The notes under the pieces were generated by a model. It was not told the origin of the DNA. It did not search any database and saw nothing but the letters and a program-made list of their open reading frames with translations. From NCBI RefSeq assembly GCF_001425055.1, contig NZ_LMDK01000021.1, forward strand, positions 124,001-188,000: a DNA stretch of 64,000 nt, read 5' to 3'. Each line of letters opens with the position of its first letter. Position 1 is the stretch's first letter. The stretch comes from Pelomonas sp. Root1237. GTDB taxonomy: Bacteria; Pseudomonadota; Gammaproteobacteria; Burkholderiales; Burkholderiaceae_C. Both the position numbers and the translations under genes were made by a program. Positions 38,320-63,722 of this stretch are shown one piece after another.

Positions 38320-38859
38320 ATGACAGAGATCACCCAGCTGCTGACGGCCCTGGCGTCCGGCGAGACTGAGGCGCGAGACCGCCTCTACACCCTGCTCTAC
38401 CCCGAGCTCAAGCGCCTGGCAAGAAGTCATCTCGCCGGCCACGCCCCGATGACGCTGGAGCCGGCGGCACTGATCCATGAGGTCTGGCTGAAGAGTGCGG
38501 GCCGCGAAGCCGCGCAGCACCGCGCGCAGTTCTTCGCCCATGCCAGCAAGGTCATGCGCAGCGTCATCATCGACCACGTTCGCGAGCGCCACGCCGACAA
38601 GCGCGGCGGCGGGCAGGCCGAGGTGACGCTGTCGACGGCCGCGCTGGAGCAGATCGCACCGCCCGATGTGCTCAAGCTCGACGACGTGCTGCAGATGCTG
38701 GAGCGCGCCGACGGCCGCGCCCACCAGGTCGTCGAGATGCGCTTCTTCGGCGGCCTGGAGCTGGAGGAGATCGCCGAGCTGCTGGGCGTTTCGGTGCCGA
38801 CGATCAAGCGCGACTGGCGTAAAGCGCGGGCTTTCTTGTTCGACGCGTTGCAGGCGTGA
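38320..38859 (+). CDS. ECF sigma factor (TIGR02999-like, kinase-associated)
   Basis: A 179-residue sigma-70-like factor. Region 2 is in the first 90 residues (LYTLLYPELKRLARSHLAGH...ALIHEVWLKSA, then HASKVMRSVIIDHVRER) and region 4 ends the protein (VVEMRFFGGLELEEIAELLGVSVPTIKRDWRKARAFLFDAL). The acidic residues normal at sigma region 2.2 (D-x-x-D before the QE/HE turn) are absent, EPAALIHEVW instead. The next plus-strand gene is a Ser/Thr kinase, as in the ECF43-type pairs where phosphorylation replaces the missing charge. No anti-sigma gene is adjacent. A structured repeat begins eight bases after the stop. ATG 38320; an open frame further upstream crosses the DUF3297 start. Confidence 0.88.
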   Translation: MTEITQLLTALASGETEARDRLYTLLYPELKRLARSHLAGHAPMTLEPAALIHEVWLKSAGREAAQHRAQFFAHASKVMRSVIIDHVRERHADKRGGGQAEVTLSTAALEQIAPPDVLKLDDVLQMLERADGRAHQVVEMRFFGGLELEEIAELLGVSVPTIKRDWRKARAFLFDALQA

Positions 38860-38866
38860 AATGAAA

Positions 38867-39002
38867 CCCCTCGTCCGGTCGCGCCTCGCTGAACGCGGGC
38901 CATCCCAGCCGGTCCCCCGCGGGGACGGCGATGCTCGCGGCATCAAGCCGCGAGCACATCGCCTGACGGGCCGGCTTGGGAGCGGCCCGGCGCTCGGCCC
39001 GA
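38867..39002 (+). repeat. Structured repeat, copy A (three hairpins)
   Basis: About 136 bases, largely identical to 62373-62506. It contains in order GTCCCC-cgc-GGGGAC, a hairpin at 38930-38960 with arms GCTCGCGGC and GCCGCGAGC around ATCAA, and GGGCCG...CGGCCC. In the other copy the middle stem has T-A where this one has C-G, so pairing is preserved. It begins eight bases after the sigma gene stop and ends before the kinase gene. Element type unknown: repeat family, structured RNA or terminator region. Confidence 0.75.
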
Positions 39003-39024
39003 TTTGCCGCCGCGGCCAGTTGAC

Positions 39025-41568
39025 GTGAACACCACTGACCGGGCCGGCGCGCTCGCCGCCTTCGATGAATGGCAGGACGCGACGCCGGCCGAGCGTGAAG
39101 CCTTGCTGGCCGAGCTGCCACCGGCGCAACGGGAGCGGCTGGAGGCCCTCATCAACGCTGACCACGCGGCCGAAGAGCGCGGCTTTCTGGCCAAGCCGGC
39201 GCAAGTACCGGGCGCTCCCGAACTGGCCGGCCAGGTGCTGGGCGCTTGGACCCTCGTCGCACCGCTGGGCAGCGGCGGCATGGGCGAGGTCTGGCGCGCT
39301 CGGCGCAGCGATGGCGCCCACAGCGGCGAGGCGGCCATCAAGCTGCTGCACAGCCCCTGGCGCGGCGAGGGGAACCAGGCGCGCTTTCGCCGCGAGGGCG
39401 AGCTGCTGTCGCGGTTGACCCATCCACACATTGCCCGCCTGCTGGACATCGGCGAAGCCCTGGTCGGCGCGACGCGCACGCGCTATCTGGTGCTGGAGCT
39501 GGTGGAGGGCGAGCGCATCGACCGCTGGTGCGAACTGCGGAACCTTCATGTGAACGAGCGGCTGCGGCTCTTTCTGCAGGTGTGCGACGCGGTGGCTCAT
39601 GCGCATGCGCGCCTGGTCGTGCACCGCGATCTCAAGCCGGGCAACATCCTTGTCACCGCGGACGGCCAGGTGAAGCTGCTGGACTTCGGTGTCGCCAAGC
39701 TGCTTGTTGATGACACCGGCGCGGAGCTGACTGCGCAACTGCCTGCGGGCCTGACGCCTGAGTACGCCGCGCCTGAGCAGCTGCGCGGCGAGCCCGTCAG
39801 CACCGCCACCGATGTGTTTGCGCTGGGCCGCCTGCTGTGCCTGCTGCTGACCGGCCAGCGTGAGCCTGCGGCCACACTGCGCGGCGACCTCGCCCTGATC
39901 GTCGGCCGCGCGCTGAAGGAGCGCCCCGACGAGCGCTATGCCGGCGCCAGCGCACTGGCCGACGACGTGCGCCGCCATCTCGAGCATCGCCCCATCCTCG
40001 CGCGGCCTGACTCGCTGGCCTACCGTAGCGCCAAGTTCGCGCGCCGCTACCGGCTGCAGTTGGTCGCGCTGAGCCTGGTGCTGGCCAGCCTGCTGGCCGG
40101 CATGGCCACCACCACCTGGCAGTGGCGCGAGGCCGCGCGAGAAGCCGAACGCACTCGCCGCGTGCAAAGCGTGTTGACCGAGCTCCTCGCCGGCCTCAGC
40201 CCCGACGCCTCCGGCAGCGCGACGGTGCCGATGATCGAGCTGCTCAGGCGCAGCTGGGCCGAGGCCAAGCGCCGGCTGGGCGATGACCCGGCCATGCTGG
40301 CCGAAGTGGCCCGGCCACTGGGGCTGCTGCTGAACCAATCCGGCGACATGCCCCTGGCGGCCGAAGCGCTGTCGCTCGCACACGCCCAGCTGCAGGGCCG
40401 CGGCGAGGCGGGTCGCGACGTCGCCTTCGAGCTCGCCAATGCCCGCAGCCGCCTGGGCCAGACCGACGATGCGCGCGCGCTGCTGACGGGGTTGGTGCCC
40501 GCGCTGCCGGCCCAGGACGACGCGGTGGCTTTGTCCGCCCTCGCCCATCTCGGCGAGATGGCGATGGAGGCCGGCCGCCTCGACGAGGCGCAGTCGCTGC
40601 TGACGCGGGCCGAGCAAGGGGTTCGCGAGCGTTTCGGCACGCGCCATGAGCGCTATCGGCGCGTGGCCGATGCGATGTCCAGCCTCGCCCGGGCCCAGGG
40701 GCGCTGGGACGATGCGCGGCGCTGGCTGCAAGCCCTCGTCGATGCCAGCGAAGGCGCGGGGCGGCTGATCGCCGCCCAGGCCCGGATGGCCGTCGCGACG
40801 ATGGAGGTCGAACTGGGGCACCACGTCGCCGCCCTGCCCCTGCTGCGCGCCAGCGTGCAGGAGCTGCAGGAAGTGCTGGGACCGGCCGACCTCAACACCG
40901 TCTCGACGCGCACCTGGCTGGCCACCGCGCTGTTCCACGCCGGCCGACCCGACGAGGCGGCGCGCGAAGCGGAGCTGGCGTTGGCGCAGGCCCGCCGCGG
41001 CGGCGAAGCCCAGGCGACCGCCGTCGTGGGGCTGGTGGCAGCACGCCAGCAAATGCGCCGTGGCGAGCCGGCCGTGGCCGAGGCGCGGATGCGCCCGCTG
41101 CTGTCCACGCTGGAAGAGGCAGGACACCCGGCGGCGGAGCGCGCACGCGCGCTGCTCGGCGAGGCGGCGCTGCGCCAGGGGCGCACGGCCGAGGCCGTCG
41201 CGATGCTGACGCAGGCCGAGGCCGCCCAGCGCACGCGCCTGGGGTTGCAGGACACCGATCGCTGGCCGACGCTGGCGCTGCTGGGGCTGGCCCATGAAAG
41301 CGCCGGCCGCATCGAGCCGGCTCGCGCCGCCTATCACGAGGCCCTGGCGCTGGCCGAGGCCGGCCTGCCGCCGGGCCATCCGGACCGCCTGCGGCTGAGG
41401 GCGCTCGTCGCGCTCGGAGACGGCCGCGACGCGCGCGCCGAGCTGGATGCCTACGCTGGTGCGCTGGCCGACCGTGCTGACGCCGCGGCCATGCGCACGC
41501 GGCTGTCGCAATTGCTATCGTCCACATCCCGCCCGGCGCCGCCGGGCCTGGCCCTGCTGGACTTCTGA
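39025..41568 (+). CDS. Ser/Thr protein kinase with C-terminal TPR-like repeats
   Basis: A transmembrane Hanks-type kinase of 847 residues. An acidic N-terminal segment precedes the kinase domain (about 75-335): glycine loop LGSGGMGEVW, AAIKLL, HRDLKPGNIL with catalytic Asp202, DFG at 220-222 and APEQL. A membrane segment (LVALSLVLASLLAGMATTTW, about 349-368) is followed by about 470 residues of TPR-like helical repeats (ADAL, LGEMAMEAGRLDEAQSLL, HESAGRIEPARAAYHEALALAE) presumably outside. It sits after the ECF sigma factor, so it is the likely regulator of it. Start: GTG 39025; a TTG 21 bases upstream is also possible; neither has a clear ribosome site. Confidence 0.9.
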   Translation: MNTTDRAGALAAFDEWQDATPAEREALLAELPPAQRERLEALINADHAAEERGFLAKPAQVPGAPELAGQVLGAWTLVAPLGSGGMGEVWRARRSDGAHSGEAAIKLLHSPWRGEGNQARFRREGELLSRLTHPHIARLLDIGEALVGATRTRYLVLELVEGERIDRWCELRNLHVNERLRLFLQVCDAVAHAHARLVVHRDLKPGNILVTADGQVKLLDFGVAKLLVDDTGAELTAQLPAGLTPEYAAPEQLRGEPVSTATDVFALGRLLCLLLTGQREPAATLRGDLALIVGRALKERPDERYAGASALADDVRRHLEHRPILARPDSLAYRSAKFARRYRLQLVALSLVLASLLAGMATTTWQWREAAREAERTRRVQSVLTELLAGLSPDASGSATVPMIELLRRSWAEAKRRLGDDPAMLAEVARPLGLLLNQSGDMPLAAEALSLAHAQLQGRGEAGRDVAFELANARSRLGQTDDARALLTGLVPALPAQDDAVALSALAHLGEMAMEAGRLDEAQSLLTRAEQGVRERFGTRHERYRRVADAMSSLARAQGRWDDARRWLQALVDASEGAGRLIAAQARMAVATMEVELGHHVAALPLLRASVQELQEVLGPADLNTVSTRTWLATALFHAGRPDEAAREAELALAQARRGGEAQATAVVGLVAARQQMRRGEPAVAEARMRPLLSTLEEAGHPAAERARALLGEAALRQGRTAEAVAMLTQAEAAQRTRLGLQDTDRWPTLALLGLAHESAGRIEPARAAYHEALALAEAGLPPGHPDRLRLRALVALGDGRDARAELDAYAGALADRADAAAMRTRLSQLLSSTSRPAPPGLALLDF

Positions 41569-61772: not shown

Positions 61773-62369
61773 ATGCCCACCCTCGATCCGCGCATCGACA
61801 CCTACCTGGCAAGCGTGCCCGAGTTCGCCCGGCCCATCCTGACGCGGCTGCGCGAGGACGTGCACGCAGCCTGCCCCGACGTCGTCGAGACCATCAAGTG
61901 GAGCCGGCCGCACTTCACGCTGGATGACAAGCTGCTTTGCGGCATGTCGGCCTTCAAGGTGCACTGCACCTTCGGCTTCTGGGAGCGCGAGGGCGCGACA
62001 CCTGGACAGCCCGGTGCCATGGGCGATTTCGGCCGCATCACGACCCTGGCCGACCTGCCCAGCAGCGCAGAGTTGCGCAAGCAGGTCAAGGCCGCCGCCG
62101 CACTGCTGCGGGCCGGCGCGCCGCGCGCCGCAAAACCTAATCGCGAGCCGCGGCCCCAGCTCGAGATGCCCGACGACTTCGCCGCGGCGCTGAGCAAGGT
62201 CAAGGCGGCCAAGCAGCACTACGACGCCTTCGCGCCCAGCAAGCAGCGCGACTACCTCGAATGGGTGCTGGAGGCCAAGCGCGAGGACACACGCACCAAG
62301 CGCATCGCCCAGGCGGTGGAGTGGATCGCTGACGGCAAATCACGCAACTGGAAATACGAGAGTTGTTGA
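61773..62369 (+). CDS. DUF1801 / YdeI-OmpD-associated family protein
   Basis: A 198-residue soluble protein of the YdhG/YdeI-like fold: YLASVPEFARPILTRLREDVHAACPDVVETIKWSRPHFTLDDKLLCGMSAFKVHCTFGFW is the DUF1801 domain, and the C-terminal SKQRDYLEWVLEAKREDTRTKRIAQAVEWIADGKSRNW is the YdeI-type tail. ATG 61773 has AGGAG eight bases upstream; a GTG nine bases earlier overlaps that site. Coupled to the TMEM175 gene. Function unknown. A structured repeat starts four bases after the stop. Confidence 0.88.
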   Translation: MPTLDPRIDTYLASVPEFARPILTRLREDVHAACPDVVETIKWSRPHFTLDDKLLCGMSAFKVHCTFGFWEREGATPGQPGAMGDFGRITTLADLPSSAELRKQVKAAAALLRAGAPRAAKPNREPRPQLEMPDDFAAALSKVKAAKQHYDAFAPSKQRDYLEWVLEAKREDTRTKRIAQAVEWIADGKSRNWKYESC

Positions 62370-62372
62370 TTG

Positions 62373-62506
62373 CCCCTCGTCCAGCTTTGCAGCGCTGAAC
62401 GCGCGCCAATCTAGCCGGTCCCCCGAGGGGACGGCGATGCTTGCGGCATTGAGCCGCAAGCATCGCCATGGCGGGCCGGCTTGGGAGCGGCCCGGCGCTC
62501 GACCCG
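62373..62506 (+). repeat. Structured repeat, copy B (three hairpins)
   Basis: About 134 bases, largely identical to 38867-39002. Hairpins: GTCCCC-cga-GGGGAC; a perfect 12-base stem at 62436-62464, GATGCTTGCGGC and GCCGCAAGCATC around ATTGA; and GGGCCG...CGGCCC. Relative to copy A, the middle stem changes a C-G to a T-A pair. Starts four bases after the DUF1801 stop; on the other side is the GGDEF gene end. Type of element unknown. Confidence 0.75.
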
Positions 62507-62531: not shown

Positions 62532-63722
62532 TCAACCCACCACGGATTGCAAGGTCGAATTGCGCATCCAGTCGTCGGCCACGACGACGCGGTTGCGGCC
62601 TTTCTGCTTGGCCTGGTAGAGGGCCTTGTCGGCCAGGTGCATCAGCGTTTCGGGCGTGTCGCTCTTGGCCGCTTCGGCAACGCCCGCCGACAGCGTCACG
62701 CGCAGTGGCATGCCGCCGTCGCCCTGCAGTTCCAGCGCCTCCACGGCCAGGCGCACCTGCTCGGCCAGATGTTTGGCGCCGGCGGCACCGGTGGCAGGCA
62801 GCACGAGGCCGAACTCCTCGCCGCCCAGGCGCCCGAGCACGTCGGAGCCGCGCAACCGCGAGCGCGTGCAGGCCGCGACGGCCTTCAGCACCTGGTCGCC
62901 CACGGCATGGCCATGCCGGTCGTTGACGCGCTTGAAGTGGTCCAGGTCCAGCATGACGAAGCCGACCGGCTGGCCCTCGCGGCGGCCACGCTCCATCGCA
63001 TGCGCCAGCAGCGACACCGTCGTGTTGTGGTTCACGGCACCGGTCAGCCCGTCGACGCTGGCGAGCTTGCGCATCTGGCTGGCCATACGCTCGAAATTCG
63101 CCAGCACGAAGCCGAAGCCCGCCGCCAGCATCGCCATGAAGGCCAGCATGAAGATGGCGCCGCTCCAGGCCTGCCAGGGCTCGGCGTCGGCCGGCGCGGC
63201 ACGCAGCCACCAGGCGGCAAAGCCCACGCGCAGCCACAGCGCCAGGCTGGCCAGCAGCAACATCAGTGAGACGGCGCGAAAACTCGTCTCGCCGCGCCAG
63301 CCCAGCCGCAGCGACGCGAGGGTGGCCGGCAGCAGCAGCGCGCCCATGGCCGCCGACATCGCGCCAGCGCGCACCGGCTGCGACACGTCCAGCACCGCCG
63401 GCACGGCCAAGGCCGCAAGCAGCAGCAACCCGTGGTGCCAAACCGGCAGGCCGCGGTTCAGCAGATGCCGCGATACCGCTGCTGCGAAACCAGCGAGGCC
63501 CGCCATCAGCAGCCAGTTGCCGCCCAGCAGTACAGCCCAGCCAGGCAGCCAGGGCTGCAGCGCAAAGAAGGCAAAGCCAAAGCTGAAGGCCAGCCCCGCC
63601 CAACCCAGGCGCTTGAGCTCGCCGCGGCTGAGTGCCCCGCGCCCAGCCATCCACAGCTGCAGCGTCAGCAGCCCGAATCCGAGCACGAGCATCAGCACCA
63701 GGGTGGGGATGTGCAGCGACAT
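62532..63722 (-). CDS. Membrane diguanylate cyclase
   Basis: Makes cyclic di-GMP, 396 residues. About six to seven membrane segments (PTLVLMLVLGFGLLTLQLWM to AIFMLAFMAMLAAGFGFVL) then GGDEF from about residue 220 (DGLTGAVNHNTTVSLLAHAM; DLDHFKRVNDRHGHAVGD). GGEEF at 300-304 is intact. ATG 63722 gives the membrane start MSLHIPTLVL; the frame is open further upstream without ribosome site or sense. Same layout and motif position as the cyclase at 58887-60038, so these may be old paralogues. Divergent from a lipid-kinase gene start. Confidence 0.92.
   Translation of the reverse strand: MSLHIPTLVLMLVLGFGLLTLQLWMAGRGALSRGELKRLGWAGLAFSFGFAFFALQPWLPGWAVLLGGNWLLMAGLAGFAAAVSRHLLNRGLPVWHHGLLLLAALAVPAVLDVSQPVRAGAMSAAMGALLLPATLASLRLGWRGETSFRAVSLMLLLASLALWLRVGFAAWWLRAAPADAEPWQAWSGAIFMLAFMAMLAAGFGFVLANFERMASQMRKLASVDGLTGAVNHNTTVSLLAHAMERGRREGQPVGFVMLDLDHFKRVNDRHGHAVGDQVLKAVAACTRSRLRGSDVLGRLGGEEFGLVLPATGAAGAKHLAEQVRLAVEALELQGDGGMPLRVTLSAGVAEAAKSDTPETLMHLADKALYQAKQKGRNRVVVADDWMRNSTLQSVVG

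Follow-up and report, generated by a model that had tools for sequence, protein, structure and literature searches.

Modular structured repeats with a stop- and start-codon lock in Pelomonas and related genera probably act at gene junctions

Results

Two copies of a four-hairpin repeat lie behind stop codons in the window

We analysed a 64,000-nucleotide stretch of the Pelomonas sp. Root1237 genome (contig NZ_LMDK01000021.1, positions 124,001 to 188,000; hereafter the window), in which an original prediction had placed a dispersed, structured repeat at two loci. Both copies were found there on the plus strand by DNA and covariance-model searches of the organism's own genome and by alignment, copy A at 38866-39002 and copy B at 62372-62506, and two signature blocks of the repeat occur exactly twice in the window and not at all in shuffled sequence. 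Copy A follows an ECF sigma-factor gene (38320-38859, plus strand), whose stop codon TGA (38857-38859) lies 6 nt 5' of it, and precedes a protein kinase gene with a GTG start (39025-41568, plus strand). Copy B lies 2 nt 3' of the stop codon TGA (62367-62369) of a YdeI/OmdA-like gene (61773-62369, plus strand), with a convergent GGDEF gene on its far side (62532-63722, minus strand).

Three hairpins had been predicted, and we found four, stem I at the 5' end having been overlooked. Copy A combines a long stem I (38872-38911, plus strand; supported by alignment and covariation, and overlapping the preceding invariant end CCCCTCG at 38867-38873) with a plain hairpin II (GTCCCCCGCGGGGAC, 38912-38926, plus strand), hairpin III (38927-38963, plus strand) and a plain hairpin IV (38967-39001, plus strand). 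Hairpin III, the middle stem of the original prediction, carries a conserved loop of the ATYGA type and shows double Watson-Crick changes at most stem positions, and hairpin IV (CGGGCC..GGCCCG, inner GCtNGGG/CCCNGC) provides a family-wide signature. Copy B likewise has the long form of stem I, followed by hairpins II (62418-62432), III (62433-62467, without the CA bulge) and IV (62472-62506). The middle stem reads GCTCGCGGC/GCCGCGAGC in copy A and GCTTGCGGC/GCCGCAAGC in copy B, so that the predicted exchange of C-G for T-A is real and keeps the pairing.

The repeat is abundant and largely confined to one family

Collecting copies and building a covariance model, the check proposed with the original prediction, showed that copies A and B are far from the only pair: a model made from 31 copies matched 146 of 150 scored candidates, giving at least 146 copies in this genome, with stems kept through two-sided changes. 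A DNA search of the same genome returned 40 scored matches among 211 candidates. All 12 genus-mates in a first sample carry the repeat, with 31-42 scored matches each, while none of eight genomes from other families of the same order gave a scored match; a scan of named genomes matched Pelomonas, Roseateles and other Burkholderiales or Comamonadaceae genomes. Allowing up to three mismatches, the hairpin IV signature occurred in 97 of 401 genomes and 40 of 141 genera sampled from the same family, and a reversed-pattern control had no matches among the rows listed. Outside the family, three of 368 sampled genomes had a single near-match each, which equals the control level. The signatures stand in tandem arrays with a spacing of 81-93 bp in some genomes. 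One genome (G507, C1:579512-579989) has six of them in tandem, 89 bp apart.

No match to the repeat was found in plasmid and phage collections, and we therefore rejected carriage by plasmids or phages as far as these collections reach. In the copies scanned against Rfam there was no match at the gathering score and only chance-level similarity below it; identity with a known Rfam RNA family, which the original prediction had named as an outcome that would refute it, was accordingly rejected. As far as searched, the repeat is catalogued neither in Rfam nor in the parts consulted of surveys of repetitive extragenic palindromic (REP) elements.

Hairpin variants are exchanged at fixed slots

Nearly all copies start with (G/A)CCCCTCG and finish with GCGCTCGGCCCG. 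Between these ends, a minimal core of about 80 bp consists of hairpins I, II and IV. Stem I is either long, as in copies A and B, or short, reading CCAAGG-loop-CCTTGG or, in other genera, CCGACG-loop-CGTCGG. Besides the plain hairpin II (GTCCCCCGNGGGGAC) there is a version that is some 70-80 nt larger and consists of several hairpins, and an insert of about 80 nt distinguishes some copies of hairpin IV from the plain ones. Hairpin III is an addition of this genus; other genera lack it in their minimal 80-bp elements, and different hairpins sometimes occupy its slot there. Variants of all four stems thus recombine at fixed slots, and the family is a mosaic of short motifs at many intergenic places, as are bacterial interspersed mosaic elements (BIMEs).

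Two unpaired positions of hairpin IV vary together (T with G, C with A, A with G), even where the 80-nt insert separates them, which suggests a conserved non-Watson-Crick contact or haplotypes. In stem I, most copies keep a pyrimidine-pyrimidine mismatch, either T.C or C.T, which corresponds to G.A or A.G on the other strand.

Helices are maintained by almost purely Watson-Crick covariation

The compensatory change first noticed between copies A and B recurs across many copies and genera, and each of hairpins I-IV is supported by two-sided Watson-Crick changes. Among 29 distinct minimal elements, 96.3% of cells are paired and 36 two-sided changes were counted, compared with 7.0 in shuffles and at most six with the partner slid. 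Across 117 distinct sequences of hairpin III we counted 148 double Watson-Crick changes, with a loop that remains near ATYGA. A closing stem formed by the first and last arms, proposed by RNAalifold for this genus, was dropped from the final structure, since most of its support comes from G-U or conserved positions.

Nearly all pairs in the helices are Watson-Crick, and G.T is scarce and no commoner than A.C. Summed over the counted helices on the sense strand, mismatch cells comprise 67 A.C and 29 G.T (binomial p ~1e-4, a value inflated by related copies). This lean toward A.C is the opposite of what a sense-strand RNA would be expected to show, suggesting that the antisense strand or a DNA hairpin is maintained; because G.T pairs are rare, the structure may be kept as DNA.

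Elements are locked to stop codons and, in other genera, to start codons

Genes were called with a simple codon-usage gene caller that gives a small bonus to starts with a Shine-Dalgarno-like motif. In the Pelomonas sp. genome, a same-strand gene lies directly upstream of 115 of 137 copies, and the gap from stop codon to element ranges from -1 to 11 nt in 110 of these 115 sense copies; for the remaining five, the called gene end runs about 25 nt into the element. All 110 clean sense copies lie within 11 nt of the stop, whereas 44 would be expected, with a maximum of 61, in 10,000 simulations of uniform placement in the same gaps. The CCCC end has a stop codon no more than 11 nt away in 115 copies and the opposite end in 14, indicating no lock at the latter. 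The predicted start after a plus-strand stop codon is therefore a general rule across copies, although the proposed distance of 4-8 bases did not hold for the pair (6 nt at A, 2 nt at B).

Strong hairpins immediately 3' of stop codons would suit Rho-independent terminators, which had been among the functions first suggested for the repeat. However, the copies have no downstream T-run, no terminator-like site was found at A or B, and most sense copies are flanked by co-directional genes within apparent operons. The signature of an intrinsic terminator, a GC hairpin with a T-run, is thus absent, the idea is largely refuted, and we consider terminator repeats a very improbable explanation.

Elements of other genera (n=72) show a second arrangement, with 34 adjoining a start codon in antisense and 21 adjoining a stop. 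CAT, the complement of ATG, lies exactly 4 nt from the CCCC end in 28 of the 72, a raw count that is independent of the gene caller's start-motif bonus, and in 33 of the 34 start-adjacent elements the gene on the far side shares the strand of the started gene. Read in antisense, the element end becomes GAGGGGC-NNNN-ATG, placing a Shine-Dalgarno-like GAGGGG at the edge. Because so many copies in other genera sit antisense just upstream of start codons, the label of a 3' element in the original prediction was too narrow.

The fixed 4-nt spacing of these antisense copies could also reflect a cis-regulatory RNA, a leader or trailer in which the GAGGGG end and hairpin II, which on that strand reads CCCCNCG, pair alternatively and gate translation. 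The CCCCTCG end is complementary to a hairpin II reading CGAGGGG if the loop base is A, the loop is CGA in 18 of 25 start-adjacent copies, and the sense-strand A.C lean corresponds to G.U on the antisense strand (67 versus 29, again with related copies inflating p ~1e-4). Nevertheless, the loop base needed for the alternative pairing varies, the downstream genes are diverse by eye, and wobble pairs are few overall, all of which make such a switch improbable.

Empty sites point to mobility that is not linked to RAYTs

In relatives, the element is missing from several orthologous sites. At copy A, direct repeats of 6 bp (CGTGAA, left 38855-38860 and right 39024-39029, both plus strand) flank a 163-bp insertion; in two relatives without the element the sigma-factor stop overlaps the kinase start (GTGAA), and a third relative has at this junction an element whose hairpin II is expanded. 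At the copy B site, one relative has an apparent internally deleted scar. At many other empty sites, the difference from the filled site extends beyond the element itself. The empty sites in some species point to mobility or loss, and they support the mobile part of the original proposal.

Such mobility raises the possibility that the repeats are selfish DNA only, spread by a transposition machinery that reads single-stranded DNA hairpins and targets ATGA/TGA-like stop-start sequences, in which case position would reflect target choice and not function. Helices that are almost strictly Watson-Crick and tolerate neither G.T nor A.C to any great extent would suit recognition of this kind, as would the tandem arrays, a preference for flanking sequence close to ATGRAG ahead of the CCCC end, the 6-bp repeat at copy A and the 7-8 bp flank repeats of some operon copies (TGACATGG, CTGAAATG, TGACATG). 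On the other hand, the flank motif is weak (about 5 bits), target duplications are not enriched overall (16 versus 13 expected), the longest words common to both flanks showing no excess, and the exact 4-nt spacing between the Shine-Dalgarno-like end and start codons is hard to explain without selection on translation. We regard selfishness as the whole explanation as rather unlikely.

We also looked for an association with Y1_Tnp transposases. None of three Y1_Tnp loci had the tested element motifs within about 1.5 kb, one of them having a different GTAGG repeat of its own on its flanks, and Y1_Tnp was present in 17 of 28 element-bearing compared to 27 of 28 element-free genomes. Mobilisation by REP-associated tyrosine transposases (RAYTs) was therefore rejected, there being neither neighbouring nor positive co-occurrence with Y1/RAYT transposases.

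A RAYT-like Y1_Tnp gene (C12:137712-138044 region of the Pelomonas sp. genome; 1350-1450 in L270) is preceded by its own classic GTAGG REP pair, GTAGGTTGGGGTGAGCCTGCGAACCCCAAC, which belongs to a different family from the present element. Another genome of the same family but a different genus (G334) has about 20 Y1_Tnp matches, many of them identical, which suggests an active expansion of the IS200/IS605 type.

Discussion

We read the observed copy number, modular anatomy, covariation, positional lock, taxonomic range and empty sites as the marks of miniature, non-autonomous, modular palindromic elements of the REP/BIME/BOX kind, found in the Roseateles/Pelomonas group and related genera and acting in cis at gene junctions, a reading to which we give a probability of roughly 60%. 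Because the elements are locked to gene ends or stand 4 nt before starts, they probably tune expression at gene junctions. From these observations we infer a mechanism of mobility as well as effects on translation, coupling or mRNA stability. Against this interpretation, the rarity of G.T wobble pairs does not favour action as a sense-strand RNA, and target-site duplications are clear at a few sites only and not in bulk.

On this reading, the elements would have spread through genomes with copies retained, or inserted, at gene junctions, and the minimal I-II-IV element would have grown at fixed slots by taking up hairpin III and expanded modules of II or IV. In sense copies, 0-11 nt past the stop, the terminating ribosome would run into hairpin I, and the 3' region, once folded, would shield the message or pause it. 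In antisense copies, the element would supply GAGGGG as a Shine-Dalgarno-like site 4 nt before the start, behind folded hairpins. The outcome would be modulated translation termination, mRNA 3' protection, or next-gene initiation.

A bolder version of this interpretation, which we put forward only tentatively, is that the repeats form a new class of modular mobile 'gene-junction adaptor' that works in both orientations, as a post-stop module for the ribosome or the mRNA 3' end and as a structured leader with its own Shine-Dalgarno site, with interchangeable hairpins and a family-wide spread by a non-RAYT mechanism that recognises stop-start junctions. In either case, a family-wide repeat class with more than 100 copies per genome, module swaps and empty orthologous sites offers natural replicates for studying the influence of post-stop structure and of mobile ribosome-binding sites on the expression of operons, and a route to a putative mobilising enzyme behind the spread of the element.

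Several known repeat systems resemble the element in part. A miniature inverted-repeat transposable element was rejected, as no terminal inverted repeats were seen and duplications at some sites produce no overall excess. REPs tagged with CGTC (PMC3733652) are likewise palindromic, often downstream of genes and without a dedicated transposase, and the CCCC end of the present element reads CTCGTCC or CTCGCCC, recalling that tag. However, CGTC REPs have a single 8-9 bp stem that starts with AT pairs and a CCA tail (PMC3733652), whereas here the CG of the motif is paired within stem I in nearly all sequences, the stem composition differs and each unit has at least three hairpins, so we rejected this assignment. 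A GTAG-type REP was also rejected, as the element has no GTAG tag and ends in CCCCTCGYCC and GCGCTCGGCCCG.

With the REPs and BIMEs of enterobacteria and Pseudomonas, the family shares high copy number, imperfect palindromes, a mosaic make-up and sites near gene 3' ends, and a REP that lies less than 16 nt from a stop codon reportedly lowers translation (PMC12306157, citing earlier work, in the part consulted). It differs in its 80-140 bp unit with a fixed hairpin order, where REPs alternate as 20-40 bp units, in having no link to RAYTs, and in that nearly all sense copies lie within 11 nt of a stop, as REPs do only in part. BOX elements of Streptococcus (boxA-boxB-boxC; PMC3049150) resemble it in their conserved ends, optional inner modules, structure if transcribed and miniature-element behaviour as described in the passages covered, and we claim no sequence relation between the two. 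BOX elements are enriched between convergent genes, and the passages covered report neither a stop/start lock nor a built-in ribosome-binding site (PMC3049150). As far as we found in the parts of these sources consulted, the present family is thus locked to stop and start codons more tightly than is reported for REP or BOX elements.
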